This document shows, one piece after another, positions 6,480 to 35,600 of a stretch of DNA of 36,266 nucleotides. The translations under genes were made by a program, and so were the position numbers. The stretch covers positions 1 to 36,266 of the forward strand of contig SLKG01000131.1 in NCBI GenBank assembly GCA_007134735.1, given 5' to 3'. The stretch is from Kiritimatiellia bacterium (GTDB taxonomy: Bacteria > Verrucomicrobiota > Kiritimatiellia > SLAD01). Below the pieces are notes generated by a model, which was given only the letters and a program-made list of their open reading frames with translations, did not search any database and was not told where the DNA came from. Numbering within the stretch: position 1 is the stretch's first letter; each line of letters begins with the position of its first letter.

Positions 6480-7138
6480 TTCTTCATCTTAATCGTAATC
6501 TTAATCTTAATCGATCCGATCTAGATTCGCCATTTTCGCGGCTTTCACAGCTTTCTCTCCTCCCCAGCTTCCAAAAGAGAACCACGAATGGAAGACATCA
6601 TTGTCCCGCTCCTTGTCTTTCGGCTAACGAGAACGGGCGACGAGAACGGCAGACGATTACCACACTTACTCGTAATCCGCAGTCGTCGCCGTAATCGTAA
6701 TCCGAAAAGAAACAGGGATACGATACAGCATCGCGCCTGTTTTCCTCCGACCAGGATTAAGATAAGGATTAAGACAACCTTATCTTTGTCCCAATCCTTG
6801 TCCCGATCATTGTCTTTCGGCTAACGAGAACGGGCGACGAGAACGGTGAACGATTATGTCTTCACTCGTAATCCGTTATCGTCGCCCGCTATCGTAATCC
6901 GAAAAGAAACAGGGATACGACACAGCAGCGTGCCTGTTTCCCTCCGACGAGGATTAAGACAAAGTTGCAAGATTCCTTATCCTTGTCCCAATCTTTGTCT
7001 TTCGGTGGACGACTACGGCGACGACTACGGTCGACGATTATGTCTTCACTCGTAATCCGTAGTCGTCGCCGTAGTCGTAATCCGAAAAGAAACAGGGATA
7101 CGATACAGCAGCGTGCCCGTTATCCTCCGACCAGGATT
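6480..7138. repeat. Intergenic hairpin-repeat array 1 (leader plus about 3 units)
   Basis: 'tccgaaaagaaacaggg' recurs at 6701, 6899 and 7081 (spacing 198 and 182). Unit also carries ggattaagacaa / cttgtcccaatctttgtctttcgg / acg-rich arms / cctgtttncctccga. Convergent gap between genes ending at 6473(+) and 7139(-). Confidence 0.85.
7010..7077. repeat. Perfect 21-bp inverted repeat within array 1
   Basis: cgactacggcgacgactacgg (7010-7030) is the exact reverse complement of ccgtagtcgtcgccgtagtcg (7057-7077); 26-nt loop. Confidence 0.95.
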
Positions 7139-8278
7139 CTATTCCCCCAAATACTCCCGCGCAAACAACCGCGCTGTTTCGTACAGATCCTGTCGGCCAC
7201 GTTTCAGGACTTCTTCCATTGGCATATCCGGCTTTCCGGTCGGCAGGGCGATTTCCACCCCCGAATCCCTCATTTCCTGTTCGGATACCTGGACCGAACC
7301 GGCCATCACCGCCACCTTCGCGCCGGCCGGGCGCGTCGATTGGACGATCCCGGATACCACCTTGCCGCGCAAAGACTGGGAATCGAAACGGCCCTCCCCC
7401 GTAATCACCCAATCGGCGCCCTCGATTACTCGCTCCAATCCACTGGCTGAAATGACTGTTTCGATCCCCGCCACGAGACGGGCATTCATGAACGCCATGG
7501 CCCCCGCGGCCAATCCTCCGGCCGCACCCGCCCCCGGTACGTTTTCGATCTCGACACCCAGTCGATCCCGCACGATCTGCGCCATATGCTTCAAGCCGTC
7601 GTCCAGCCGCCGCACCATTTCCGGCGTGGCCCCCTTTTGCGGCCCGAATACCTGCGCGGCGCCGTGCTCGCCGCACAACGGATTGTCCACGTCGCATAAC
7701 ACCTCCACCTCCGAGAAACTCACTCCCTCAGGGGGTTCGATATCCCGGATGGCTTCCAGGTGTTCACCGCCCAATCCGATCGGCGCGCCTTGTTTGTCCA
7801 GAAATCGCCAGCCCAACGCCATGGCGGCGCCCACGCCGCCATCTACGGTCGCACTGCCTCCCACCGCCAGGAGAATGCGCTCCGGAATCCGGGCCAATGA
7901 ACGGGCGATCAGTTCTCCGGTCCCGTATGTCGTGGTCTTCAAGGGATTGTATTCAGACAGCTTCAACAAGGGCAACCCGCTGGCACTCGCCATTTCCACC
8001 AGTGCCATGCGATCCTTTTCAAACCAGGCGTATCCGGCCTCCACGGTCCGATCCGGCAAGGGTCCCATTACCACCGCCCGCATCCATATTCCATTGCGCG
8101 CCGCGATCAGGGCCGAAGCCGTTCCTTCTCCGCCATCGGCCATGGGCTTGATCGACACATCAAGATCTGGACGGACCGATAACAGCGCATCCCGTATGAC
8201 GGCACACGCCTGGCGCGCACTCATGACCCCCTTGAACGAATCCGTGGCAATGACGATCTTCAATGGTTTACCTTTCAT
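7139..8278 (-). CDS. Glycerate kinase (GarK/GlxK type)
   Basis: KIVIATDSFKGVMSARQACAVIRDALLSVRPDLDVSIKPMADGGEGTASAL, AVGGSATVDGGVGAAMALGWRF, VITGEGRFDSQSLRGKVVSGI. The tracked ORF begins at 8302, but the Met at 8278 (MKGKPLKIVIATDSFKG) fits better because the extra 8 codons lie in a REP-like repeat. Confidence 0.9.
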   Translation of the reverse strand: MKGKPLKIVIATDSFKGVMSARQACAVIRDALLSVRPDLDVSIKPMADGGEGTASALIAARNGIWMRAVVMGPLPDRTVEAGYAWFEKDRMALVEMASASGLPLLKLSEYNPLKTTTYGTGELIARSLARIPERILLAVGGSATVDGGVGAAMALGWRFLDKQGAPIGLGGEHLEAIRDIEPPEGVSFSEVEVLCDVDNPLCGEHGAAQVFGPQKGATPEMVRRLDDGLKHMAQIVRDRLGVEIENVPGAGAAGGLAAGAMAFMNARLVAGIETVISASGLERVIEGADWVITGEGRFDSQSLRGKVVSGIVQSTRPAGAKVAVMAGSVQVSEQEMRDSGVEIALPTGKPDMPMEEVLKRGRQDLYETARLFAREYLGE

Positions 8279-8282
8279 ACCC

Positions 8283-8645
8283 AGAACCCAGCGCTTACGC
8301 ACATAGAACCCAGCGCTTACGCGCTTCGAACCCAGCGCTTACGCGCTGGGCTACAGACTGACGCCCCTTCGGGGCTTGGGATGATTATTTCTTTTTCCAG
8401 CCCTTACGCACTTCGAACCCAGCGCTTACGCGCAGGGCTACAGACTATCGCCCCTTCGGGGCTTGGACTATCTTATTAACTCTATTTCCCGGCGCTTACG
8501 CGCAGGGCTACAGACTATCGCCCCTTCGGGGCTATAATAGAACATCCCGAAATTTAGCCCCGAAGGGGCGTCAGTCTGTAGCCGGGTGCGTCAGCACCCG
8601 GACACAGACAAAAAATACAAAATAAGCCCCGAAGGGGCTTCAGTC
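8283..8645. repeat. REP-like palindromic repeat cluster
   Basis: Repeated 'aacccagcgcttacgc', 'agggctacagactatcgccccttcggggct' and inverted 'agccccgaaggggcgtcagtctgtagcc'. Hairpin cccagcgc-ttac-gcgctggg at 8331-8350. 28-nt inverted arms 8506-8533 / 8556-8583 with two mismatches. Confidence 0.85.
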
Positions 8646-15508: not shown

Positions 15509-16752
15509 CATCCTAATCTTAATCTTAATCTTAATCCTAATCCTAATCGATCCGATCCAGATTCGCCCATTTCGCGGCTTTCACAGCTTTTCCCCCTCCC
15601 CAGCATCCAAATGAGAACCACGAATGGAAGACATCCTTGTCCCAATCATTGTCTTTCGGTGGACGACTACGGCGACGACTACGGTCGACGATTATGTCTT
15701 CACTCGTAATCCGTTATCGTCGCCCGTTATCGTAATCCGAAAAGAGACAGCGATACGATACAGCATCGCGCCTGTTATCCTCCGACAAGGATTAAGACAA
15801 CCTGATCTTTGTCTCAATCCTTGTCCCAATCTTTGTCTTTCGGCGAACGAGAACGGGCGACGAGAACGGTGAACGATTACCGATTTCTTCTCGTAATCCG
15901 TAATCGTCGCCCGTTATCGTAATCCGAAAAGAGACAGCAATACGATACAGCATCGCGCCTGTTTTCCTCCGACAGGATCAAGGCAAGGATTAAGACAAAG
16001 ACGCAAGATTCCTGATCCTTGTCCCATTCTTTGTCTTTCGGCGGACGAGAACGGGCGACGAGAACGGCAGACGATTACCCCACTACTCGTGGTCCGTTAT
16101 CGTAATCCGAAAAGAGACAGCAATACGATACAGCATCGCGCCCGTTTCCCTCCGACAAGGATAAAGACAACCTGATCTTTGTCACAACCCTTGTCCCAAT
16201 CTTTGTCTTTCGGCGAACGACTACGGTCGACGATTATATCTTCACTCGTAATCCGTTATCGTCGCCCGTTATCGTAATCCGAAAAGAGACAGCGATACGA
16301 TACAGCATCGCGCCTGTTTTCCTCCGATGAGGATTAAGACAAGGATTAGGACAAGGATAAAGACAACCTGATCTTTGTCTCAATCTTTGTCCCAATCTTT
16401 GTCTTTCGGCGAACGAGAACGGGCGACGAGAACGGTGGACGATTACCCCCCTACTCGTGGTCCGTTATCGTCGCCCGTTATCGTAATCCGAAAAGAGACA
16501 GGGATACGATTCAGTATCGCGCCTGTTTCTCTTCGACGAGGATTAAGACAAGGATTAGGACAAGGACATAGATAACCTGATCTTTGTCTCAATCTTTGTC
16601 CCAATCATTATCTTTCGGTGGACGACTACGGCGACGAGAACGGCAGACGATTTTACCCCACTACTCGTGGTCCGTTATCGTCGCCCGTTATCGTAATCCG
16701 AAAAGAGACAGCGATACGATACTGCAACGCGCCTGTTTTCCTTCGACAAAGA
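15509..16752. repeat. Intergenic hairpin-repeat array 2 (leader plus about 6 units)
   Basis: 'tccgaaaagagacag' recurs at about 15736, 15923, 16106, 16278, 16487 and 16697 (spacing 172-210). Same unit structure and leader as array 1; begins with (cttaat)n. Confidence 0.88.
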
Positions 16753-17664
16753 TCAGAACGCCAACCGTACATGATCCATATATACGGTCACTTCCTCATC
16801 CGGCTCCGTTACAAACAATCCCCACCGGACGATGTTGCCGATATCCAGCGGTCTTCCGGATGGAGTGATCCATTCGCTCATATCCAGCGCCAGTTCATGG
16901 GATCCCGGTTTCAGCCGTGTATGTTTCTGAAACCGTTCCTCGTAGGGCGGATCCTCGCGGTCATCCACCCGAAACCAGATATCCACGGGTTGTTCCGCCT
17001 CCAGGTATACATCCAGCAAAAGGTGTTTTGCCGGGCGCCAGTCCCCGGGCACATCCACCATGAAGATGCGCGCATACCGCACACCGGGTTTTAATACAAC
17101 CCGCAAGGCCCGGTTCCCCCGCGTGGCATGGCGTTCCACCCGTTCACGCCGTCCATGATTAACGCGCCACCGAGTCAACTCAAGGGGGGATTCGAAGTCG
17201 GCCAGGACGGGAAAGGCTCGCGCGGCCGCCCACCGGTCGGCCAGAACCGCGACAACAGGCACGATGGTGAGCCCGACGATCACGACCGCGCAGACCCGGA
17301 GGCGTCCGTTCACCGGGGAAGGACGGTGCCGGGCATATTGCCACAGAAGCCCAATCATGGCGCCCGCCCATCCCATCAACACGTCGCCGAAATCGGGATC
17401 CCGTCCCGTGAGCGCCTGTAATCCCTCGATGGCGGGCGCCGCGAACAACAAAACCGCCGACACATACAAGAAGCGCCGGCCCGAATACCGGTCTTCGGCC
17501 GGTATCGTCAGCAGGAAAACTGCCATCAGCGCAAAGGCGGGAACATGGGCGAAGTTCCATAGGACACGGACTAGACGGTCTTCTGTTTCGATCGGAAACG
17601 GATAGAGGAGCAACGCCGCCACACCAATCAGCACAACGACGGATGCGGTTCTCTTGAATGACAC
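16753..17664 (-). CDS. VanZ-like membrane protein with C-terminal carbohydrate-binding/beta-sandwich-like region
   Basis: N-terminal hydrophobic helices with VLWNFAHVPAFALMAVFLL and DPDFGDVLMGWAGAMIGLLWQY (VanZ-like); soluble C-terminal half ADFESPLELTRWRV...NRALRVVLKPG...HLLLDVYLEAEQPVDIWFRVDD...VYMDHVRLAF. GTG start 2 nt after the giant ORF's stop codon. Confidence 0.75.
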   Translation of the reverse strand: MSFKRTASVVVLIGVAALLLYPFPIETEDRLVRVLWNFAHVPAFALMAVFLLTIPAEDRYSGRRFLYVSAVLLFAAPAIEGLQALTGRDPDFGDVLMGWAGAMIGLLWQYARHRPSPVNGRLRVCAVVIVGLTIVPVVAVLADRWAAARAFPVLADFESPLELTRWRVNHGRRERVERHATRGNRALRVVLKPGVRYARIFMVDVPGDWRPAKHLLLDVYLEAEQPVDIWFRVDDREDPPYEERFQKHTRLKPGSHELALDMSEWITPSGRPLDIGNIVRWGLFVTEPDEEVTVYMDHVRLAF

Positions 17665-17666
17665 CG

Positions 17667-20600
17667 CTAATCCACTTCCCAGATTACCCGATACGACCGG
17701 AACCGGTTGTCGGGCGATTCAATGTCCTCGTAATATAGATCTCCGCCCCGCGTGGATGTGAACCGCCCCTTCTGGTGCGAGCCCGGACCGTCCGGCGCGT
17801 CAACCCAGTTTATCCCGTCCTCCGTATATTCCACCCGGTATGTTTCGTGCCAGGCGCCGTGCCACATGATGGTGTGTCTTTCGGACGTCAGGAACTGCTC
17901 GACAATGTCCTCAAACTCGCTGAACCTGATTTCAATCGGCGCGGTGTTGGTGGCGGCGTACACATCGTCTTCATGCATCCCGATTACACGCCATCGTCCG
18001 TCGAAGGTATTGAAGTACGGGTCCGTCGTCCAAATAATGTACTCCTGGTAGGCGTCCACGTTTTCCTCGATGGTATGCCACGACACGCCTCCGTCGCCGG
18101 AGAATTGCACCGCGACCAGCACGCCCTCCGGAAGATTGTTCACGGCCCAGACCAGGGGTTGCAACAGTTCGTCCAGGGTTCCGATTTCCTGGCCCGGCGC
18201 GTTGAGGGTCCTCGTAACCACGCGGATATTGGTCGAGCCCTTGCTGGCAAATTCCGTGTTTCCGAACGCGCCGAGATTGACGCGGCCGGCGGTGGGATCC
18301 GGTTGCCGGTCAAACGGGGAGTCGGGATTGCCGCGCCCGATCGCCCAGGATGTTTCGACATCCTCCACAAAGGTATTGAGGGACGGATCATACCTTCCGT
18401 ATTCGCTCCTCAGATGGAAGTTCCCGGCGGACGCATTCTGCATTCGCGGATTGGTGATCGCGCTCCGGAAATCGTAATGCTGGCTCAACTGCCAGGTTCG
18501 CAAATTCCTGTTGGTGCCGAAGATATACCCATCCTCCTCGAAATAATAGATGTTGTAATCGATGAACATCTCATCCGATGGAATCTCGCTTCCGCTCAGC
18601 GCCACGTCATTGGACCCCGAAACCACGAATATATTATTCTGCAACTTGGTGTTGAGTATCGTGTTCTGCGCACGGAAACTGTAGTTCGAGTTCGCGACAA
18701 AGGTCACATTTTCAACCCGGGCAGTCCGGACGTTGCTGAGATCTATTCCTCCCAGATTCTTCCATACACGCAAATTCCGCAACTCCACGTTGCGCGAATT
18801 CCCCGCCAGTATGCCTACCGTATTGCTGTAACTGAAGACCCGCTCCACCTTGACATCCCGCGTGCTATTGAGCCAGACGCCCCGTTGCGCGGTATGGATG
18901 GACAAATCCCGAAGCGTGACATGCGCGGCCAGAACATTAAAGCCCCGGCCTATGACCGTGTTCCCGCGGCGCAGCACGGTCCCGCCCAGCGCCAGGTTGG
19001 TACTGCCCTGGATCACCATGGGCCCGTGCTCCGCATCCCCACCGCGCGACCAGATGATTTCGGTATCGCCCACGGTATATGTTCCCGTATCCACGTAGAT
19101 CACATCGCCGCCCACGGTGTCGTAGGTGTCGAGCAGGTCCTGGATGGAGCTCTTCGGTGTGGCCGGCGTCAACCCGTCATTAGCGGGACTCCCGGGGGCG
19201 GTGGTATAGATATCGTGGAACACCCCGTTGTTTACAAAGAAATCCTGCGGGTCGTTCCGAACCGAAAACTCATTGTCGGTTTCGCCGTAATACACGCCCG
19301 GATTACTGTCCAGCACGACCCGCCACTTGGCAAACAGGCTGGATTCGAACTGGGTGGTGTCCCATGTATAGCTTCCCGCGGCCGCGGGCAATCCGGAAAC
19401 AATGGTGATCCATCCTCCCGACGGATCGGGCCGATACTGCAAGGTCACGGTCTCTTCATCCATACCGGCGCCTCGCGCCAGCCAGCGCAGAACCACGTTG
19501 GTGCCGCGCACAGCGCCGCCGTCATTGAGGGACATGGTACCCAGCCACGGGGAGGCGCTGGTCTTACTGGCCTGTTCGGTATTACCGTATGCGCCAAGAT
19601 TGATGCGTCCGCCATTGGGATCCAGCTCATGACCAAAGGCACTCCCCGGATTCCCCGCATCAATGGCGGGCGAATTTTGCAGATCGGTCATCCATATGCC
19701 CTCAAAATAACGGCCGGCCGAGGATTTCAGGTGATAATCTCCTCCCGCCTCATCCGCAAACAGCGGATCCGCCGAGATGCTGTTGAGATCCTGGCCTGAT
19801 CGTTCCTGCCAATACACCAGTCTCTCCCATAACCCTTCAGCGGTATTCCCGATCCACGCATTCCCGCGTGCCAGCAGAAGGTTGTAATCCGAACTCAACG
19901 TGCCGGCATCCCGCTGAATGATCTGGGAATTGGCAATCAGTATGTTGTTGAACAAGTCAAGAGACGAACCCGATCCCCGTTGACGAACGGCCACCCCGCC
20001 GCCGACAACCGTGTTGTTTCGAATTACGGTATTGGTCCCCGATACGGTTACGAGGGTGCCCGCTCCACGGGATATCACGGAATGCTCCAGCAGGGCCCGG
20101 GCTCCGCCGACGGTCAATGTTCCATCCCGGATTTCAACCCCTCCCGCATACACATCGTTGCCGGTAATCTCCAGCGATCCATCAATCATCCTGATATTCC
20201 GCGCCTGTCCGGCCGCTCCCGCAATTCTGAGCGAGGTGTTGGAAAACTGCATGTCCCGGAAGACAATATTCGTACCCGCCGCCCGAACGGCACCATGCCG
20301 AACCGCCATGTCCTCCAGCAGCATATGTCCGGCGGTAATATTCAGGAATACGGCGCCCCCCAGCGCCGTGGCGTCAAGCAGGGTGCCCGGCGCATTGGTG
20401 CTTCCGCGAATGGTAACCGGTCTACCCGCAGCGCCTTGGCTGTCGATCGTAATGGTCACAAGGTTGTTCGTGTCGAAATAATAAATACCTGTATCGATCA
20501 AAATGCGATCTTCGGGCTCCAAGTCCCAATCGTCGAATACACTCTTGAGCGTCGCCTTGGGCGCCGTCGGGAATATGCCGAACGCTTCGTCATCCCCCGG

Positions 20601-23600
20601 CGCCTCCGTGAAAACATTGTTCTCCACCGAGTGGTCGTTGACATAAAACGTGAACGGACCGTTCAAACCGAAGAATGTATCGGCGGTATGATAGAGGTTG
20701 GTATCGGCCTCCAGGATAACGCGCCATTGGGAAATGGGGCTGATCAATACGTCCGGATCTGTGCTGTCCCAGAAGAAGCCGTCCTGGTCTATCGGTACAT
20801 TCTCGGCTATGGGTTGCCAGTTTTCGCCCATTTCCAGGGAATACTCAAGGCGAACACGGTTGGTGGCATCCAGGTTCCCAAACGCCCAGTAGAGCTGAAT
20901 AATGCCGTTCATGCGCCCCCCCTGCAGGGCTGTAATGGCCAGCAACCATTCCCGGGTCAGGCTCTTGCTCGCCTCCGCTGTATTGCCGTACAACCCGATA
21001 TTGCGGCGTCCGCCGTGGGGCTCGGGCTCCATGCTGTAATCGGATTGCGGACTCCCGGTATCGATCAAGAAGGATGTTACCGTGTCGTTGGTAACCCACC
21101 CCTCTCCCCGTACATACCGTCCCACTTCGCTGAGCAGATGATAATCGTCATTCGCCGGATCGGCAAACAGGGGATCCCCCGATATGGATCGCCGGTCCTG
21201 CAACGTTTCCTGGTTCCATTGCGGCAGCCCGGAAAACAGGAATCCCGCGCGACGGGCATACGACGCGCCGCGATCCGCGAACAAGGCATTGTAATCGGAT
21301 CGGACGTTGGATCCCGAAGGAACATTGTAGATTACATTGGTCGGCGCGGCCATAGCGTGAAGCACGGAGTTGCTGATATTCAACGTGCCCTCAACGTTGA
21401 TGGCGTTAAGCCGGTTCGACCAGAGGATGGAACTGTTGATCCACGTGTTTCCGGCGCCCGAAACCATGGATATGCCCGACCCGTAGTGGCGCGTGATCAC
21501 GACGCGTTCGAACCGGTTTCCCGCGCTCTCGCTGATGCTAACCCCCGCGCGTCCCCCGTCCCGGATCAGAAGGTTTTTCAGAAGGTGACCGGTGGTCCGG
21601 GATGTGGGACCGCCCATGCGAATGGCAATATCGGCATTCTGCATGATCAAATCGCGGAATTCCAGGAACCGTACCCCGTACAGATCGAAGATCACGGCGG
21701 GTTCCCCGGCCATCGAGAAATTTCCGTGCCGAACACGGTGGAGTACCGTGCCGCCGGCCAGATGATTGGTACTGCCCTGTATGACCACACGATTCGTCGC
21801 CACACCCGAATCGTTGGCCAGAATGAGTATATTCTGATCGATTTCGTAAATGCCCGTATCCACGTAGATCGTGTCGCCCTGGTCAAGATCATATCGTTCA
21901 ATAATGGCGGATATCCGGTCCACCGGGGTCCATACGGTAATCCCGTCATTCGTTGCATGTCCCGGGGCCGCGGCATATACATCCCCTACCGTATTCGTAT
22001 CGTTGACGAAGTACGTGATCGGACCGTTTCGGATGGTGAAATTCTGCGGGGTCTGGTCCTGTAGCGAGGGATCGGATTCCAGTTCGATGCGCCACAGTCC
22101 CAAGGGCGTGGATTCCTCTTCGCTGAAATCCCAGAAATGCGTCTGATCCGCAACCGGCACGTTCGTCGCAATGGTGATCCAGGTCGCCCCGTCATTCGGG
22201 GAATATTCCAACCTTACGGTTTCGTGTTCATCCAACCCCCGGTGGAGCCAGTACAGCGGATGCGTAAAACTCACGGTTCCTCCGTCCCGCATGCTGACAA
22301 CCTTCAAGTCGGCGTTCAAGCGGTTGGTGACGGATAAACTCGCTTGCGCCGTATTGCCGTAGCGGCCAATGTTCAACCGCCCGCCATGGGGCTCGGGCTC
22401 GTGATCGTAGGGAGCATCCCGGTCGCCCGCGTCAATGGCCCAGGATGTTTCCGCATCCGGCTCATGAACGCCCGTTTCCAGATTGAACCGGCCCTTTTGG
22501 CTCCGCAGCCGGAAATTCCCCGAAGCAGGATCGGCAAAGAGCGGCGGCGCGACAACGCTGTGATGGTCCATGTTCCGGGCGTCTTGCCAGGCGCGGAGAC
22601 TGCGATAATCCACCAGCATAAAGGGATCGCGCGCCAGGCGCGTATTGCCTCCGGGCCAAATCATGTTGTAGTCGCCGGATATGGAAGCCTGCTCGTGTAC
22701 CGAATACGCGAGCGCATGCAACAGTGACGCGTCCAATATACTGTGTCGAACTACCGCGCGGGTTCCGGACCCCAGGGAGACGGCACCCAGTTGATTGCCC
22801 CAGGCGACACTCGAGAGGATATCCACGATGGACTGCGCTCCGGCCACCCGATATCCCCATTGCGCATTGTTGTAGGAAGCGGCCCTCGACAGCTTAATGT
22901 TGCGCGCATTATTGAAATCAAAGCCGAAGGTGGTCCCGTGCGCACTTACGTAATCCAATTTGATCTCCTGCGCGTTCACCACCCGGACTCCCCGCTGGGC
23001 CTGTCTCAAGTCCAGGTTATGCACGTGTACGTCGCGGGCGGCGATCAGCGTCACCAATGCGGCATTATGACCCGTTCCAACGAATCGGCTCCCGCCCGCG
23101 GCGAAATTCGTACTGCCCATTATGATAATCGGCCAGCCGGGCTGCCCGCTCTTCAGCGTGTCGCCTATCAGCCCGAGCCGCATGCCGTCCGTATCGGCAA
23201 TAATGTATTCACCCGTATCAATGTACAGAATGTCGCCCGGCCCGAACGGATGCTCCTGTATGGCCCGGGCGGGATTGTTCATGGGCTGGTTCGGAGAAAG
23301 ACCGTCGTTGTCGGAATGACCCGGGGCCGTGGTATAGACCGTGTTGTTCGTGTTCCCGTCGTTTACGTAGACCACGATGGTCTCATTCTTGACCGTGAAT
23401 GGCATGTCCACCGTATCCCGAAGATCCGGATCCTCATCGCTGACCACTCTCCACCGGGCATGCTGTGTTATGGGCACATTCGAGGCATCCCACATGAACT
23501 CGGATTCATATACGGGAATGCCCGACTTAAGCGGGACATAGGATATGCCGTCAGACGAGAATTCCACGGTTACGGTCTCCGACGGGTCCATGTTGCCCGC

Positions 23601-26600
23601 CACCCAATACAACCGCTGGGTACCAAAAACGACGCCGCCGTCATTGACCGATACCGCCAGTAACCAGGCATTTGTTTTGCTCAGACTGGCATACGGCGTA
23701 TGGCCGTAAAAACCAATGTTGACCCGCTCCCCATGGGGTTCCTGTTCCCGGTCCCAGGGGGAATACGGGCTCCCCGTATCAATGAGGGGCGAATGAACCG
23801 CATCGGATACCCAGTTGGTTGAAAGCCAGCGCCCCTCGACACTCATGGGATGAAAATCACCGGCGCCCGGATTGGCAAAGTGCGGGGCATGGCTCAAACT
23901 GTTCCTGTCCTGACCGAGAAATCGCTGCCAGTCGAGCATGCGCGGATAGAATTCATTCCCGCCGAAATCAACCTGACGCTCGGCCAGCACCGCCCCTTCG
24001 GTTCGCACAAGATTGTTGTAATCCGCCTGTATGGCCGTCACATTTTCACCCAGGACAAAAATGCGGGCATCGGTTTGGTGCGCCTGAAGCACACTATTGG
24101 AAATCTGCAGGGAACATCCCGCATCCACCCGCATGGCCACGGGATTGCCCCACGAAACCACGTGCCGGGCATTGACCACCGCCGCCCCCTCATCGGTGAC
24201 CAGTGACAGTCCAACAGCGTCGTTATTCCATAAAAGCACATTCTCCAGTCGCACATTACTCGAACCGGCGGCATGTACACCCTGGGCCACGTTGTTATAC
24301 GATTTGATATTGGACAGGGAAATGGAATCGGAACGGGTTATGCGCACGCCCGTATTCGCATTCCGGAAGGACAGGTTTTCGATCCGGATGCCTTCCGTTT
24401 CAAAGAATTCCAGCGTGGAACCCACCCGGGTTATGCGATCCATGACCGTCCCGCCGGCCGTCATGTTGGTACTCCCCCGGATAATGACGGGGCTTTCCGC
24501 GGTCCCGGCTTCGAAGATGCTCATCCGGGTAGTCACGTTTTCCTCATACACGCCCGTATCGATGTAGATCACGTCGCCGGGTTCCAACTCGTTGTCACGG
24601 ATGAGGGATCGAAGAGACGGTTTGGGCGCGCTGGGCAACCAACCCGTGTTGTTGTCATGGCCCGGCGCCGTTGTATATACGTCCCCGTTGGAAAGGGGAT
24701 GATTCACAAAATACGGAATGCTTCCGTCCTGGCGCAGACGGAAGAAATTGTCGTTCATGGACCACAAATTGGTGTCCGTCTGGCTTGTAATCCGCCAGAC
24801 TCCGGCAATCGCCCGGCCATAGGGGGCGCTGTTCCACAAATAGTACCCATGCGAGGCCGGAACCCCCGTCGCCACATTGGTCCAACTTCCCGCCTCCCCA
24901 CCCAACGGGGAAAATTCGATGGTTACCAAATGATTGGTTACGGGGCCGGCCGCCACCCAATGCAACCCGATATCGTCAAAATTCGAACCGCCATCGCTAA
25001 AGGTCAGTACACGAAGAACCCCTTCCTCCGGACTCTTGCTGGCCTGCGGCGTATTGCCGTACAATCCGATATTGGCGCGTGCCCCGTTGGGATCGGGTTC
25101 ATGACCATAGGGCGCATCGGCACGGGCGCCGTCAATCAACGGCGAGAAAGCCTCCATGGCATTGGTCACAAAGCCTTCACCGGGAACATAACGGCCGTAC
25201 GGGCTCATGGGATGGAAATCGCCCGTGTCGGGATCTGCGAATTTCGGATCCGCGCCCAGGCTGTTGGCATCCTGTCCGGTCCGCTCGTTCCATCTCGACA
25301 GCCGTCGAATGGGGAATGCCCCACCGGGATATGGCCCCGTCTGCCTGCCGATATAGGCCCCGGGAACGACATGAAACACATTATAATCCGAAGAGAGTAC
25401 GCCGGAATCGGATCCGTCTTCCCGCTCGATCCCGGCCGTTTCCGGCTTCAAGGCACCAAACACCGAATTCTCCACGGTTAACGAACTGACACGCGTCAAC
25501 GGGTCTTGCGCATAGGATCCCCCGCCCACGCGGGCCCCAACGGCATTCGACCAGAATACCCCGTGCTGGAAGTCGGTATTCTCCGACCGCCAGCTTCGCA
25601 GACCGCTTTCGGCATGGCCCTGTAGAAGCGTATGCCGCAGTCGCACCTCGTGCGATTCATTGATATCTATACCGATCAGGGCATCCCGGGCCGTAATCCA
25701 TTCCAGCGAAGCATAGGACGAGCGGGTTAATCGAATGGCAGACCCCGAACCCCGCGGCTCATTTCTGAATCGAATATTCCGGATAGAGACACCCCAGGCA
25801 TCCACCAGTTCCAGGGCCCGTCCGTTTTGCACCCGCGTGATCCGTGTTCCTCCCGCAAGTTCGTTGGTGCTTCCCTGCAACGTGACCCCGGCCGCGCCTT
25901 CAAACAACGGAAGCAGGTTGGTCATGTTGTTCCATGCGTTAAAGCGGGTCCACTCGATTGTCTGATCGATAATATAATTCCCGGTATCCATATAAATGAC
26001 GTCCCCGGGCTCCAGGTCATATTCATTCAGGATGGATTGCAGGGAATTCCTCGGTGTCGCGGGAGTTAATCCATCGCCATCCGAGGATCCGGCGGCCGTC
26101 GTATACACTACCCCCTCGGTGGATCCGTCATTGATATACAGGACCAGGGGATCGTTACGCAGGGCAAAGGGCTTCTCCGTCTGCCCGTACACACCGGGAT
26201 CGTCTTCGCTCCTGACCCGCCAGGCGCCGATCCATGTGGAGGGATGCCCGGTGGTGTCCCAGAACAATCCGCCTTCCGTTACCGCCACAATGTTGGTGGC
26301 GATCTCTTCCCAGGTGTTCCCGCCATCAGGCGAAAAATCGATCCGAACCGTATGCCCGGTCGCCGCTCCGTACGCCCGCCAGATCAGCCGGAAGGAATCC
26401 CCCCTGGCATATCCGCCGTCCCGGAGGGTAAGGGGGACCAATCGAGGCTCGGCGGGAGACCGGCTGGCTTCCGGTGTATTTCCGTACAACCCGATGTTGA
26501 CCCGGTACCCGTGCGGATCCGATTCCTTTGAGTAATCGGCCTGCGGACTGCCGCTGTCAATCAGCAAGGATGTATGGGCATCCGTCACAAAGGTCTTCAC

Positions 26601-29600
26601 TACCGGATCGTATCGACCGGCTTCGCTGAGCGGATGGAAATCTCCTCCCACCGGGTCCGCAAACAAGGGGTCACCCGCCAGGCTGTGCCGATCTCTTCCA
26701 TAATCTCGGATCCATTCAGCCAGATTCCGGGATTTCATGGGAAGCGGGACGCGGAGCGCATCGCCGGGCACAAAAGGATACGTACGCCGCGAAATATACG
26801 CCGGACCTTCCAACTGGAAGAAGTTGTAATCCGACCGGAGATCGGCGGCCCGATTCCACGAAAATACGGCGTTGGCGCTGAAATGCGAAAACACCGAATT
26901 CGAAAAGGAAACGGAACCTCCACTCATTTGCACCGCCCCCAACGCCGCTTCACCCACCGCATTGGACCACAGGACTCCGTGCCCCCAGGAAATGCCCGTG
27001 ACTCCGGCCAGTGAAAGGGCCGGTCCCGTCGTGTCCCGGATCAGGCAATGCCGGAATACTCCATTATGCGAACCGTCCGTCACCGAAACCCCGGTTGCCG
27101 CGCCTTCTATCCGTATATGACGGAAATCGAATCCGCGCGACCTCGTTAATCGAATGCCGACCTGCGCATTCCGAATGGTCAGATGCCGCAGGGCTATGTA
27201 CTCCGCATCGGTCAGGCTGATCGCCGGATTCAGGTCGGCGGCTTCGAAAACGGTTCCGCCCGCCGCATAATTCGTGGACCCGATGAGCGTGACCGGCCGG
27301 TTCGCTTCAAGGGATCCGGCATCCATACTGGTAATCGAAATGGTGCGCGTTAACGGATAGGTGCCCGTGTCGATATAGATAAGGTCTCCGGGTTCCAGGT
27401 CATAGGTCCGCAATATACTCCGAACGGAATCCTTCGGGTCGGAAGGTGTTGTTCCTGTATGACCGGGCAACCCGATATTCGTCGTGTACACATTGCCGTT
27501 CGTCGACGAATCGTTCACATAGAACGGAACCGGACCATTTCGAATGGCAAAGACCACGGTATCGGGCATTTCACCCGAGAGCGGTTCCTCCGTCTCACTG
27601 ACCACCCTCCAGCGGGCCAGCACGGTGGACGGCATCCCCTCGAGGGGCTGCGTGAATGAACCGGCGTCCGCCGGAATGCCGGCGGCCAACACGTCCCAGG
27701 AAGCTCCATTATCGGGTGAGAATTCTATCCGGACGGAATGCGATAAAGCCGCGCCCTGCGCCAGCCAATGGAACGTCACATTGGTTCCGCGAACGGTTCC
27801 GCCATCATAAAACGACACCGCATGCAACGCCGCGTTGGTGGGCGAATGACTGGCTTCGGGGGTATTTCCGAATCTTCCGATGTTGGCGCGATCCCCGTGC
27901 GGAATCGGTTCCTGGTCAAACGGAGCCGCAGGAGAGGCGGCGTCAATCAACGGAGAGGTCACCTCATCCGTGGCCGAAAAGCCCACCCCGGGGACATACC
28001 GTCCGCCCGGCGCCTGGGTCTTCAGATGAAAATCGCCGACGGCAGGATCGGCAAACAACGGGTCCTGCGCCAGGCTGTGCCGGTCGCGCCCCGTGGCCTG
28101 CGCCCAATTCCCAAGCCGCCGATAGAGATTCGGCAATTCCTGTCCGCCCACGGATTCCCGCGCCACCCATGCATCGTCCCGGACATGGATGCTGTTGTAA
28201 TCCGCATTGAGCAGGCCGCCGCCAAAATAAATGTAGGCATCCGGGCCGAACGCGCCCAATACGCTGTTGGATACCGAGATCCCGGCAAATCCGCGCACGG
28301 CATACCGGTTGGACCAGAGCAAACCCTGATCCCATACAACCTTCGCGGATTGGTCGGCCCACAACGCGTTCGTCGTCACGTTTCTGACCGAACAATTGAC
28401 CATGCGCGTCAGCATGGAACGTTCTATGTGGATCCCGTGCCCGCCGCCGATGACGTCCACCGCTTTCATCAGGGTGTTGGTTGCGTTGACGACATGCAGG
28501 GCGGCGCCGACCTGTCCGACGCGGTTGAAGGTGATATTCTTCAGCGTCAGTCCGCGTGTGGCGTCCAGCCGCAACCCGCCCCCCGTAAAGACCGTCCCCC
28601 CCTCGTCCCGGTTCGTACTGCCGATGATGCGAACCGGATCCTCTCCGTCGCCGGCATCGCGCTGGCTGATCACGAGGTTGCCGGAAAGGGTATATTCGCC
28701 CGTATCCACGTATACCACGTCACCGGGCCGGACATCGTAGCGTTGGAAGACATCGGCGAGCCCGGGCAGGGGAGAATCCGCCGATAACCCCGTATTTCCC
28801 GAAGCCCCCACGGCCGTGGTGTACACATCACCGTCGAGGGAATCATCGTTTACATAGAAAACGAAGTTCGTATTCCGAACCGCAAATATGACCTCATTGG
28901 TTCCGGACACCGGAGTGGATTGACTCTCGACGCGCCATCGCCCTTTCAGGGTGGAAGGCCATTCGGTGGTATTCCAGGTATACACGCCGTCCAGGGCCGG
29001 AATCCCGGTCGCCACCGTATCCCAGGAAGCGCCCCCGTTGCCGGAAAACCGTATCAATACGAGGTCGTTGGTTACCGCTCCCCGGGGCAACCAACGCAGG
29101 TTTACCTGTGTTCCTTTTGCCACGCCGCCGTCGTTGAAGGACAAAACGGTCAATGCCCCGTCGTCCGGGGTTTTGCTCGCCCATAACGTATTCCCGTATA
29201 ACCCGATGTTGACGCGTCCTCCGTTCGGGTCGGGCTCGTGCGCATAGTCGGCCGCGGGATCACCCGCGTCAATCAATGGAGAGGTGACGGCATCGGGCAC
29301 AAACAGGCCCGTACTCACATCGTAGCGGCCTTCCTGGCTCTTCAGGAAAAAGGAACCGGCCTGCGCATCCAAAAAGAGGGGATCATGGCTTAACGTATTC
29401 AAGCCCTTTCCGGTGGCCTGTTGCCATGTCGTGACATCGGGGTAGCGAAGGGGCGCGGAAAGACTCACATTATGAGGAGGCTGGGCTATGCGAACGACGT
29501 GGTGAACGGGGTCGGCGCCTTGGCGCGCATGGAAATTATTATAATCGCCGGTGAACGACGATCCCAGCGTCACCCGAATACCAATCCGGTTCGGCCCGAA

Positions 29601-32600
29601 GACCCCGATGATCGAGTTGGAAATCGCCATGGAGGAATTAGCGGCCAGCTCGATGCCTATGTTATTGTACCACATAACACCGTTGTTCCACAGCAATCCC
29701 GTGGATTCTTCGGCCTGAAGGGCCCAGCTCCGAACAGTGTTGGTCAATCCGAAGATGGAGGACCGGTTCATGACAATGTCCTGCGATTCCGCGATGCGGA
29801 AACCGTACCGATCCCCCGCCGAGCTCATACCGGTCGGAAAATCGATATGCACATGTTCGAACCGGCTGTCTTTTACCCTCTCCAGGTCCATGACACGCGC
29901 GGTATTCGTAAAACGCAGATGGGACACCTCGTAGGCTTCGACGTCCCTGAAACGAAAGGCCGGACCGCTCTTCAGCCCGTTGATCACCGTGCCGCCGGCG
30001 GTGTAATTCGTGCTTCCAATGATACGAACCCGGTTGGTGCCCCATCCCGACATCATGGCGCTGAAGGTGACCGGGGAGGAAAACGTGTATTCACCGGTAT
30101 CGATGTATATCCGGTCCCCCGCCTCGATATCGTACCGGTTCATCACTGCGTGCAGGGACGGCAACGGGGTATCCGGATCCAACCCGTCATGGAGCAGGTT
30201 CCCCGCCGTGGTCGTATACACATTTCCTTCCGTGTTGCCGTCATTCACATAATAGGATATCTGGCTGTTGTTGATCCGAAACGGCACGCTGTTGCTGGCC
30301 TGCAACGACGCGTCGTCCTCGCTGATGACCCGCCAGAACGCCCGGGGGAAAGTGCCTTCCACGGTCGTATCCCACCCCTCGTACACGCCCTGGGCCGCGG
30401 GGAGGCCGACGGCGATGTCCACCCACGTTTCCCCGTCGTCGGCGGTATACTGAATGCGGACCGTGTGCGACGTAGCTCCGCCCGTGGCAATCCAGTACAA
30501 ACTGTTGGTCCCGCGAATCACGCCTCCCCCGTAAAGGCTGACCGCCAGCAGGCGGGGTGTGGGCGGCGTGCGGCTGGCTTCCGGATGATTCCCGTACAAC
30601 CCCATATTCATGCGTCCCCCGTTCGGGAAAGACTCCTCCCCGTACGGTGTGCCGGGATGGGCCGCATCGATCATCGGAGAAGTTTCTCCATCCAACACGA
30701 AATCGTTCTGGGCCGGATCGAAACGTCCGGCTTCACTGCGCAAGTGGAAATCGCCGTTTGCGGGATCGGCTAACAACGGGGCATGCGTCAGGGAGTGCAT
30801 ATCGTTACCCGTGGCCGCCTGCCATGAGGTCAGGAAACGACGCAACAGGTTGTTCACCAACGCCAGCTCGGCATCGTCCCGCAACTGAAGGTTGTTGAAG
30901 TCGGACTGGAACCCGGAAACATTTTCCAGCGAATAGATCCGGTTGGTAATTCCCGCGGCCGTAATCAGTGAATTGCTGATGGATACCGTGTTCGCGGCGG
31001 AGTAACGAACGCCTCCGGCCCGGTTTGACCAGACGATACTCTGCCCGACGCGCACCTGATCGCTCTGATGACCGCGCAGTCCGAACCCCTGGTTGTCCGC
31101 CAGTACGGCCCGCGACACCCGTATATGGTTGTTTCTCTGGAGGAACAACCCGTCCCCGCTACCGCCCACGGCGCGAACCATGGACAACCCAATATGCTGG
31201 GAATCCCGGACACGAATACCGGTAGCGGCGCCTTCCACCACGATGTTGGATATGATCACATATCGGGCATGATCCACATCCAATCCCACTCCTCCGGTAA
31301 AGGCCAGAACGGATCCCGGTACCGAATAATGCGTGGATCCCAATACCACCACCGGGTTCCCGGAAACGCCGCTGTCCGCGGGGCCGATGGTCACCGTCGC
31401 GTGATCGGAATACATACCGGTATCCACGTACACCACGTCGCCCGGCTCGATATCGTACCGGTGGAACACGGTGGCAAGCGAATCCAACGGCCGTTCGGGC
31501 GTGGCCACCCAATTGGTCGGAGAACCGGGCGCGGTGGTCCACAGCGTATGGTTCATATCCCCGTTATTTACGTACCAGGCCAGCGGAGCATTCCGGATCG
31601 CGAAGAAATTCGTCGTTTCGGAAAATACGCCGGAAGGATTTTCGACAAGGCTGACCCGCCATAATCCGGCCACGGCCGTTTCAATGGCGGTGGTGTCCCA
31701 TAGATAGTATTCATCCGTCGCGGGGACGCCCGCGTGCAATTCGTCCCAGCTTTCACCGCCGTCGGCAGAAATCTCAATGCGCACCAGGTCGGAGACATCC
31801 AGGTTGCCCGCCACCCAGCTCAATGTCGCCGTTTCCTTGACCCATCCTCCCTGCCTAAGTGAAGCCGCATGCAACCACGGGGATTGACGGCCCTTGCTCG
31901 CTTCCGGCGTGTTCCCATACAGCCCGATATTGACCCGGCCTCCGTTCGGAGGCGGTTCGTTGGAAAAATCGGATGCCGGATCTCCGGCATCAATCAAGCG
32001 GGAAGTTACGGCATCCGCTACCCAGCCGCCGGACGCCGGATCATAGCGCCCCGCCGGGGTCCGCGTCTTCAGGTGAAAATCAACCGGCGGGTCGGCAAAC
32101 AGCGGATCCACACTCATACTCGCCCGGTCCTGTCCGGTTTCCGCGCTCCATGCGGACAGGCTGTCCGTATTCCGGCCCAGCGATGCGATGTGGCCGACCA
32201 TCGCCTGGTTCCTGGTAAATATGTTATTGTAATTTGCGACCACGCTTGCCGGATTCGCCGCGTGATAACCCAACGCACCCGGTGTGGATGCCACGATGAC
32301 GCTGTTGGTCATGCGAGCCGTCCCGCCCGCTACGCGCAGGGCCGTCCCGACATTGTTCCAAAGCACACTGTGCCGGAGCGTAACGTCGCCCGACCCCACA
32401 AGGACACCGTTCTGGGTGTTCTGCCGGCTGATCACACGTTCCAAGACAGTTCCCGGGGAATTGATCACGCGAATACCGGTATTGTTTTCGTAGGCATGAA
32501 CCCGCACCAGCCTGGATCCCTCCGCGTTGTTCAAACGGATGCCCTCATCCTGGTTGCGAAACCGGATATCGCTGACTTTCACATACCGGGCATTGTCCAG

Positions 32601-35600
32601 GAGCAATCCATAGCGCCCGGCGGCCGGTGTTCCCGGCCGGGCGAAGACGGTCCCGCCCGCGGCATTATTCGTACTGCCGCGGATGTGCACGTATTGATTC
32701 GTACTGCCGGAATGCGTGATGCCCATTACCGGGTTCGCGGAGACCGCCGCGCCCAATGTGTAGACACCCGTATCCACATAGATGATGTCGCCCGGTTCAA
32801 GCGCATAGGCATTCAGCACCGCTTGGAGGGTCGCTTTCGGCGTGGACGGATCAAGACCCCGATTGGCATTGTCACCCGGGGCCACGGTGTACACGTTTCC
32901 GGCCGTCGAGTGATTGTTCACATAATAGACAAAAGGACCGTTCCGGAACGAAAACGTGGACGCCGTATGACTCGACACATCCGGGTCGTCTTCATAGACG
33001 ACCCGCCACATGGCTTGCGTTGTGGACGTCTGGTTTGTATAGGCCCACGCCCATGAACCGGCCGTCGCCGAAATGCCGCTTGCGGCCACCTGCCAGTCGG
33101 CGCCCGGTTCCGCCGCCAGTTCGATGCGAACCGTGGCCTCCGGCGGAAAATTACCGCCCGTCCACCGGACAATATCATTCTCCTCCACGTTCAGCGCGCC
33201 GCCGTCGTTATACGTCAACACCTGGAGCCAGGCGTTTGTCCGTGACTTACTCGCCCAGAGCGTACCCCCGAACGCGCCCACATTCAGTCGATCGCCGTGC
33301 GGAGCCGGCTCATTGGTCCAAGCGGTTGACGCCGGATCCCCCAAATCAATCAGGGGCGAGTGCTCGGCATCCGCCACAAAGTCGCCCGTATCGGGGTCAT
33401 ACCGGCCGGTCATGCTCCGCGGATGAAAATTGTAATTCTCCGGATCGGCAAATTTCGGATCGAGCACCGCGCTGTTCCACCATCCGTATAACTTCTGGAA
33501 AACATTCAGACTGGTATACTGGGCCGGTCCGATAGCCGCATTCCAGAGTATGTTGTAGTCGCCGTATTGCGTAATCCGGGTCCCCGCAAACATGTTTCCG
33601 CCGACAACAACCGTGTTGCTGATGGTCGTGCCCAGCGCTTGATTTCGCACCAGGTTGAATGCCGCGGAATTGCTCCACATCACATTGCCGTTCACGGTAA
33701 ACGGCCAGTTGCCGCGTATGCCCACGCCGCGGCCCTTGATGATGCATCGCTCAAACGAAACCCCCTGGCTGAACTCCAGGTTGACTATGGATGAGGCTCC
33801 GGAAGCCGCCATGTCAAACACGCGAACGTCCCGAAGCGCAACCGAATCGGCGTCAATGGTTACGCGGAGACCGTTTTTCAGCGTCATGTGTTCGATCTCC
33901 ACGTGTGAGCCGGTAACCCGCAACGCGTCATGATCGGGATTCATCCGGTCAATCACCGTCCCGCCCCCCGCCGGGCTTGTACTGCCGCGGAGGGTGAATC
34001 GTCCGCTCGCGCTCGATCCCGCTTGTCTCGGTCCCACGGTCAGCGTGAAATTGGAATACACCCCCGTGTCCACGTACACGATGTCGAATCCGCCCAGGTT
34101 ATACCGCGCAAACAGGTTGGTAATGGTTCGCATCGGTGTCTCAGGCGTCAATCCGTCATGGGAATCGTTTCCGGCCTCCGACGTGTACGAATTGTCTTCC
34201 GTGTCGTCGTTATTCACGTAATAGGGCACCTTGTGTCCGTTGATGGAAAAGCGTTGCACGCTCCGGGACTCCACGGCCGGGTCGGATTCGGAAACCACCC
34301 GCCATACCGCCGCCATCGGCGGAACACCCGTTACATCCCACGTATACACCCCGTCGGTCACGGGAACACCCGTGGCAATATTGGACCATGTTACACCGCC
34401 ATCCGGGCGGAATTGCAGTGCGACGGTCTCGCCCGGATCAAACTTCCCGTGATTCCACCGCAGTATTGTATTGGCTCCGGAAGCCCCGCCGCCATCGCTG
34501 AAGGTAAGGGCGCGTACCCAGGCGCTGGTGCGGCTCCGGCCGGCCAGTTCCGTACCGCCGAACGCCCCCGCGTTGACCCGCCCCCCATTGGGATCCGGTT
34601 CGTTCGTCCACGCCGTGGAAGCCGGATCGCCGAAATCAATCAGGACGGAATGAACCGAGTCCGTCACGGTATTGCCCGTAAGGGGATCGTAACGTCCCGT
34701 GACGCTCTTCGGATGGAAGTTCAGGTTCTGCGGATCGGCAAACAGCGGGTCGGTATGAATGCTATTGGGCCCGTTCAATTCGGAAAGATAGGCTCGTTGA
34801 CCCTCAAACAGGTCGGTACGCCAGAACACATTGTAGTCTGCCGTCGGCGTATTCCTGCGAAAGGCCGTGCCGCCTACGACCACATTGTTCCGGAATACCT
34901 GCGATGCCAGGCCGTGCTCAATCCATAAGGCCGCGAAATTGTCATAGAACACGCAGTGCTCGACCAGAAAGTCATAGGCGGCATGATAGGCATTGATCGC
35001 ATTTCCGGAGTTACCGGTAAATACCGTGTTGCGTATGGTCCACCCATCTCCCCGTGCGCGTATGGCATTGGCATTGTCACGGAAGATTATATTCTCAACC
35101 AGGATATGTTCACCTTGGGCCGCGCCGTGTGTGCCGGGCCCGCCCATACCATAACGACTTTCCATAACCGTCATGTCCCGGAAATGCACATGTTGGACAT
35201 AGTCGAGATCAAAGACGTTTTCACCGCCTGCGCCTCTACGGAACACGGTTGCGCCCCCGCCCGGCGCCCCCTGGAATACAATGGGCCGGCCTTCGACACC
35301 TGAAACCGAAACGGTCGTGGTATAATTCGAGTACGTTCCCGTATCGATATACACGATGGATCCCGGTTCGAGGGTATACGTGGCCAACAGGTTGGTCAGG
35401 GTCCGCATGGGTGTTCCGGGCGTCAATCCGTCATTCGCGTCATCGCCCGGCTCGGTGGTGTACACGTTTCCTTCAACGTGGCCATCGTTCACGTAATACG
35501 GAAACATGTATCCGTTCACGGTGAACCGGCGCTCGTTTTGCGCCCACACGGACGGATCCGAATGGCTGACCACACGCCAATGCGCGGCCATCGGTTCGAG

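Follow-up and report, generated by a model that had tools for sequence, protein, structure and literature searches.

In Coxiella and Leptospira, the 23S rRNA carries intervening sequences (IVSs) with an S23/IVP open reading frame; these IVSs are sporadic and horizontally acquired, and mobility is one of the roles proposed for the reading frame (PMC4990558). A second group of related repeats comprises REP, REPIN and BIME sequences and the REPtrons with RAYT transposases (PMC3733652, PMC3116915). A REP of the GTAG/CGTC type is a palindrome of 20-40 bp that has a stem of 5-13 bp and is tagged with GTAG or CGTC on one side (PMC3733652).

The window analyzed here, a stretch of 36,266 nucleotides from the genome of a Kiritimatiellia bacterium, contains two arrays of hairpins that resemble both systems and fall under the definition of neither. 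Like REP, REPIN and BIME repeats, the hairpins are dispersed intergenic palindromes, solo as well as clustered, and a related gene is bounded by the same repeats. However, the main hairpin, H1, is 77-92 nt long, has about 30 pairs in tandem blocks, and in every case begins with TTTCGG and ends with CCGAAA. Moreover, whereas a GTAG-type REP is characterized by a RAYT gene flanked by the repeat, an H1 block cluster was found at none of the eight Y1_Tnp loci of the genome. The likeness to 23S rRNA IVSs consists in a PF05635 four-helix-bundle (4HB) gene inside an inverted-repeat stem, and applies to elements with a gene of D4HB, a protein with two such S23/IVP domains (257-293 aa as called), but not to the gene-less copies of the window. 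Unlike IVSs, which reside in a 23S rRNA helix, both arrays sit between protein genes; further differences are arms made of degenerate words in tandem, arrays of copies that lack the gene, and a two-domain protein. The array is best understood as REP-like and non-autonomous, with an S23/IVP protein as its partner, and it probably represents tandemly amplified gene-less hairpin arms derived from two related IVS-like D4HB elements.

Two other systems are similar in part. Cyanobacterial STRRs are tandem heptanucleotide repeats, and Avd, the accessory protein of DGRs, is a four-helix-bundle protein of related fold; we know of no description of STRRs as arms of four-helix-bundle genes. The term STRR is used in PMC4748335 and others, and Avd is described in PMC8934634. 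Tandem 7-mers likewise form the inverted arms around 4HB genes of Nostoc and Pseudanabaena plasmids, whereas the period here is 12-13 and the proteins are double-domain. In contrast to DGRs, the D4HB loci showed neither a reverse transcriptase nor a template repeat on informal inspection.

Structure of the arrays

A repeat search of the window placed the units of array 2 at 15692, 15879, 16062, 16234, 16443 and 16653, and thereby reproduced exactly the six units and the spacings of 187, 183, 172, 209 and 210 reported in the original prediction. Each unit consists of three consecutive hairpins, H1, H2 and H3. In H1, left blocks ACGA-NN-ACGG face right blocks CCGT-NN-TCGT, with spacers of 2-3 nt and a repeat period of 12-13; H2 is a small tail hairpin after H1, and the arms of H3 are the 12-mers AAGGATTAAGAC and CTTTGTCTCAAT. 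The fold energy of H1 ranges from -39 to -57 kcal/mol (z -4.5 to -9.5, equaled by 0/200 shuffles) and H3 folds with a z of -7.3; with such scores, the H1 and H3 hairpins are not due to chance. The features of the two arrays are as follows:

6481-7138, + strand: array 1, of the same hairpin family as array 2; abuts the stop codon of a glycerate kinase gene (7139-8302, - strand)
15509-15548, no strand: AATCTT/AATCCT hexamer run at the left edge of array 2 (tandem repeat finder, direct repeats)
15549-15653, no strand: leader common to both arrays, containing ATTTCGCGGCTTTCACAGC and AGAGAACCACGAATGGAAGACATC, like remnants of GxxExxY-type arms (read in the sequence; similar stretch beside a 4HB gene, L033)
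15654-15742, + strand: H1 of unit 1, left CT/CT and right TA/TA
15743-15778, + strand: H2 tail of unit 1, followed on the - strand by TGTCTCTTTT (homology with unit 5)
15784-15837, + strand: H3, with arms AAGGATTAAGAC and CTTTGTCTCAAT
15838-15929, + strand: H1 of unit 2
15979-16035, + strand: H3 between units 2 and 3
16036-16112, + strand: H1 of unit 3, one 13-nt right-arm block missing
16208-16284, + strand: H1 of unit 4, one left-arm block missing
16337-16404, + strand: H3 between units 4 and 5, aligned to the C11 array over about 16329-16403
16404-16493, + strand: H1 of unit 5
16494-16529, + strand: H2 tail of unit 5
16537-16612, + strand: H3 between units 5 and 6
16613-16703, + strand: H1 of unit 6, the left arm itself mixed (CT and GA)
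16704-16752, + strand: H2 tail touching the stop codon of the - strand gene 16753-17664

Four features extend the earlier description, namely the hexamer run with its leader, the losses of single blocks, the two extra hairpins in each unit, and the genome-wide dispersal of the family. The block losses concern units 16036 and 16208, each deprived of one 13-nt block, in opposite arms. Array 1 contains three units related to those of array 2 (6657-7137 in the repeat search), with H1 hairpins at 6618-6707, 6815-6904 and 7000-7087; the hexamer run recurs at its left edge (6481-6512), followed by the counterpart of the leader (6513-6617). Each array abuts, on its right, the stop codon of a - strand gene, which in the case of array 2 encodes 303 aa with a VanZ match too weak to reach the Pfam cut-off. 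No D4HB gene lies inside the window.

Stem conservation and arm exchange

The central stem had been described as occurring in two flavours of either arm, with mixed combinations pointing to arm exchange or gene conversion between units. The left-arm flavours agree with that description. As to the right arm, ccgtagtcgtcgccgtagtcg exists, but only in unit 7000, and is thus a feature of array 1 and not of array 2. The last unit of array 1 (7000) is indeed the only one with a flavour-matched perfect stem, and the mixed unit indicated near 15660-15735 corresponds to unit 15654.

Standard pairs made up 90.6% of the paired cells in a set of 30 diverse hairpins, and double-sided changes in the stem numbered 37, compared with 19.4 +/- 2.9 in shuffled data (0/500 shuffles reached 37); the stem collapsed once it was slid. 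In 12 of these 30 hairpins, the variable positions 14/82 and 27/69 were unpaired. The stem is conserved but leaky. In a set of 56 hairpins from this genome and its relatives, both blocks of one arm carried the same dinucleotide in 73% of left and 79% of right arms (32% and 37% when shuffled, p = 5e-5), whereas the cross-stem agreement of paired blocks was 36% and 45% (30% and 36% when shuffled, p 0.18 and 0.06; p 0.05 and 0.01 with one hairpin per locus). Hence, words are homogenized inside an arm. Flavours are shared within arms and only leakily across the stem, which is maintained. All four combinations of left flavour with loop/right-spacer type are present among the nine units of the window, and units 7000 and 15654 combine an identical left arm and loop with different right arms. 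These patterns fit an arm-wise exchange between units, which is partly supported by the within-arm sharing and the variety of combinations, while independent change may have produced them too.

Dispersal of the hairpins

The hairpin family is dispersed in the genome: 82 BLAST matches were obtained, of which many are half-hairpins or hits to the two strands of a single palindrome. A covariance model detected H1 in 43/288 genomes of the class, belonging to 29 genera, so that its distribution is patchy. When about 85,000 species were scanned for the exact pattern, 44 loci were returned, all in MAGs, and all labeled as PVC group, Lentisphaerae, Kiritimatiellae, Verrucomicrobia or 'uncultured bacterium'. 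As judged by simple ORF calls, the sites of the family are intergenic. A MITE is marked by a target-site duplication and a matching transposon; in the relatives read, the sequence upstream of purA is without the array, but the neighboring gene differs there too, so that this comparison provides no clean empty site.

Elements appear to nest in one another's loops, as H1 loops at L253:239-600 and L243:3714-3989 hold other inserted sequence, which at L253 is a hairpin with GxxExxY-type arms. Intergenic DNA of this genome at L279:1850-3560 contains many more words in inverted arms (TGTCGGGTG, GTATCCC, GGTCCTTGG, CCAACAAGGAATATCCAA), mostly gene-less. One gene, with a formyltransferase domain, was found between a left and a right half-hairpin, and we take this single case as chance.

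Hairpins enclose the genes of a double four-helix-bundle protein

D4HB genes were found in this genome (C54 and C137) and in relatives (G163, G144, G112, G001, G004 and G009), with proteins 56-85% identical to the C54 copy. H1-type hairpins, some of them partial, lie close on both sides of the gene at 7/7 loci with both flanks in the contig, from six genomes (SLKS locus L243 and G163 C283 have the same coordinates and were counted once), and at an eighth locus (G009) the sole readable side carries a half hairpin. The D4HB loci thus have a hairpin-gene-hairpin architecture. Flanking on both sides is rare for other genes: among 179 ORFs of hairpin-bearing loci it was seen for two, one of which was D4HB (1/178 for the others). 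Double-domain proteins 30-43% identical to D4HB were without H1 flanks, mostly having other 12-13-mer inverted arms.

Downstream of another D4HB gene of this genome (C11, 38% identical) lies a tandem hairpin array, to which H3 is identical at 60/75 positions (80%) without gaps; this array was the best match for four of five H3 copies and joint-best for one. As H1 flanks the C54/C137 type and H3 matches the C11 array, both main hairpins of the window have their own D4HB gene in the same genome. A double-4HB gene with a tandem H3-type array was also seen at L075:20-1190, directly before DNA that reads like an rbfA-truB operon (putative names).

The AlphaFold model of D4HB consists of two four-helix bundles (pLDDT 88), one of which superimposes on the S23/IVP structure 2GSC with a TM of 0.89-0.91 and also matches 2RLD, another S23/IVP structure. 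A fold search returned S23 proteins at E-values > 0.001, with a TM of about 0.9 to one bundle, and a sequence search of the PDB gave no match.

H1 was carried by 19/30 genomes with any double-4HB match and by 24/258 others. In 37 of the 43 H1-bearing genomes, many of which are incomplete MAGs, no H1-clade D4HB was above the threshold. Copies of the C54 protein in three other families share 83-85% identity with it, while PurA of these families is 59-61% identical to that of this genome; D4HB is thus conserved across families well above a housekeeping protein. This suggests horizontal transfer of D4HB, although mis-binning of single MAG contigs could have the same effect.

Arm words and repeat period follow the protein

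In this genome and its relatives, 4HB genes are framed by inverted arms in which short words recur in tandem, and these words differ from locus to locus. With arms accepted when the complementarity of the flanks exceeded that of 95% of mismatched flank pairs, inverted arms flanked 30/36 four-helix-bundle, 30/32 GxxExxY (PF13366) and 0/29 purA genes; left and right refer to contig orientation for whole-genome loci, which leaves the complementarity score unaffected. S23/IVP four-helix-bundle proteins were present in 50/56 genomes examined, often in several copies. On plasmids from other phyla, inverted arms enclosed 4HB genes in Nostoc, Pseudanabaena, Calothrix and Riemerella and GxxExxY genes in Bacteroides and Sphingomonas, while five other GxxExxY plasmid genes fell below the mismatched 95% level. 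On the plasmids of L299-L305, such genes split normally adjoining pairs: nrdB/nrdA in Nostoc edaphicum, fabD/fabG in Sphingomonas and cas6/cas4 in Pseudanabaena. GxxExxY was not found in viral contigs, and DUF559 had no match in the genome.

By autocorrelation, the best lag in the arms of single-4HB genes (n = 33) was 7 (20 cases), 8 (6), 6 (2) or multiples (5), whereas in those of double-4HB genes it was 12 or 13 in 22/25 (Fisher p = 4e-13). Thus, the arm repeat period follows the number of four-helix-bundle domains. For GxxExxY arms, a first guess of period 11 was abandoned, as autocorrelation gave a weak 8-10 instead. Arm words co-diverge with the protein: arm similarity correlated with protein identity with a Mantel r of 0.82, and of 0.83 without the H1 clade (both p 2e-4). 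The loci in the period and Mantel comparisons are not phylogenetically independent, which makes these p values optimistic. Since linked descent of gene and arms alone would also give co-divergence, the period rule hints more strongly at recognition. Searches of open-access full-text papers turned up no account of such arms or of a link between period and domain number.

Discussion

The position of both arrays against a stop codon is what would be expected if they were host 3'-end elements, either terminators or mRNA-stabilizing hairpins processed by RNase III, that had turned tandem, with the link to 4HB proteins being secondary. In line with this, of 24 arrays between co-directional genes, 17 are oriented alike with respect to these genes (17:7, p 0.03, some strand margins being low), other sites being convergent (8) or divergent (4). 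In an intrinsic terminator, a T run directly follows a GC-rich stem; here, TGTCTCTTTT follows H2 on the - strand, and terminator-like sites number 5, compared with 1.5 +/- 1.2 expected. The orientation and 3'-end placement of the arrays fit a transcriptional role as well. However, no T run follows H1, the H2 tail was seen only in copies of this genome, and the family is patchy; a 3'-end role would also leave unexplained the consistent enclosure of one protein subfamily, and we consider it unlikely as the origin of the arrays.

An origin as REP/BIME or MITE repeats of the usual kind, mobilized by a tyrosine (RAYT) or another conventional transposase, would account for intergenic palindromes dispersed as solo, paired and clustered copies in a genome with eight Y1_Tnp matches. 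It is at odds with the lack of H1 block clusters at these eight loci, with stems far longer than those of REPs and without REP tags seen, and with the identity of the enclosed gene, which encodes D4HB and not a transposase; we regard it as improbable. Replication slippage, which is evident in the within-arm homogenization and the single 13-nt block losses, could together with template switching have produced neutral palindromes among which 4HB genes came to lie by accident. That the same block sequence occurs in 29 genera, that words track protein clades and that the period tracks domain number make this very improbable.

If the arrays are gene-less arms of D4HB elements, the full element would be a D4HB gene enclosed by the same hairpins as the copies of the window. 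Each 4HB domain may read about one arm word of 6-7 bp, with a two-domain protein corresponding to the period of 12-13 bp. D4HB could then help to copy or insert hairpins in trans, solo hairpins spreading like REPs, while local arrays might gain or lose blocks and units through slippage or unequal exchange, homogenizing words within an arm. For D4HB elements we infer binding, mobility, copying in trans and RNA processing; in 23S rRNA IVSs, it is RNase III that excises the transcribed stem. That the spacing of arm repeats tracks the number of protein domains suggests that the poorly understood S23/IVP family reads, and perhaps spreads, these hairpins.

A broader reading, which we put forward tentatively and with somewhat less than even confidence, is that of a wide class of selfish hairpins without a conventional transposase. 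In such a class, S23/IVP proteins, or GxxExxY nuclease-like proteins in a sister form, would recognize the tandem words of their own arms, and domain number would set the period (about 7 bp for one bundle, 12-13 bp for two); the present arrays would be gene-less descendants. If true, this class would explain many so far unexplained degenerate hairpins and STRR-like repeats in several phyla. As S23/IVP proteins are without established function, the rule connecting domain number and clade with the period and word of the adjacent repeats provides a direct, testable hypothesis for what these proteins bind. The rule also suggests where numerous unexplained hairpins between genes, the cyanobacterial heptamer repeats among them, may have come from.

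Other features of the window

At gathering score, an Rfam search of the window returned nothing in the arrays and only Acido-Lenti-1, at 8331-8601. The four matches there (three on the + and one on the - strand) fall within a small group of palindromic repeats that resemble one another and contain GCCCCTTCGGGGC hairpins. Positions 17667-36206 on the - strand are occupied by a single ORF of 6179 aa with DNA repeats spaced about 1.35 kb apart, which probably encodes a giant repetitive surface or secreted protein.
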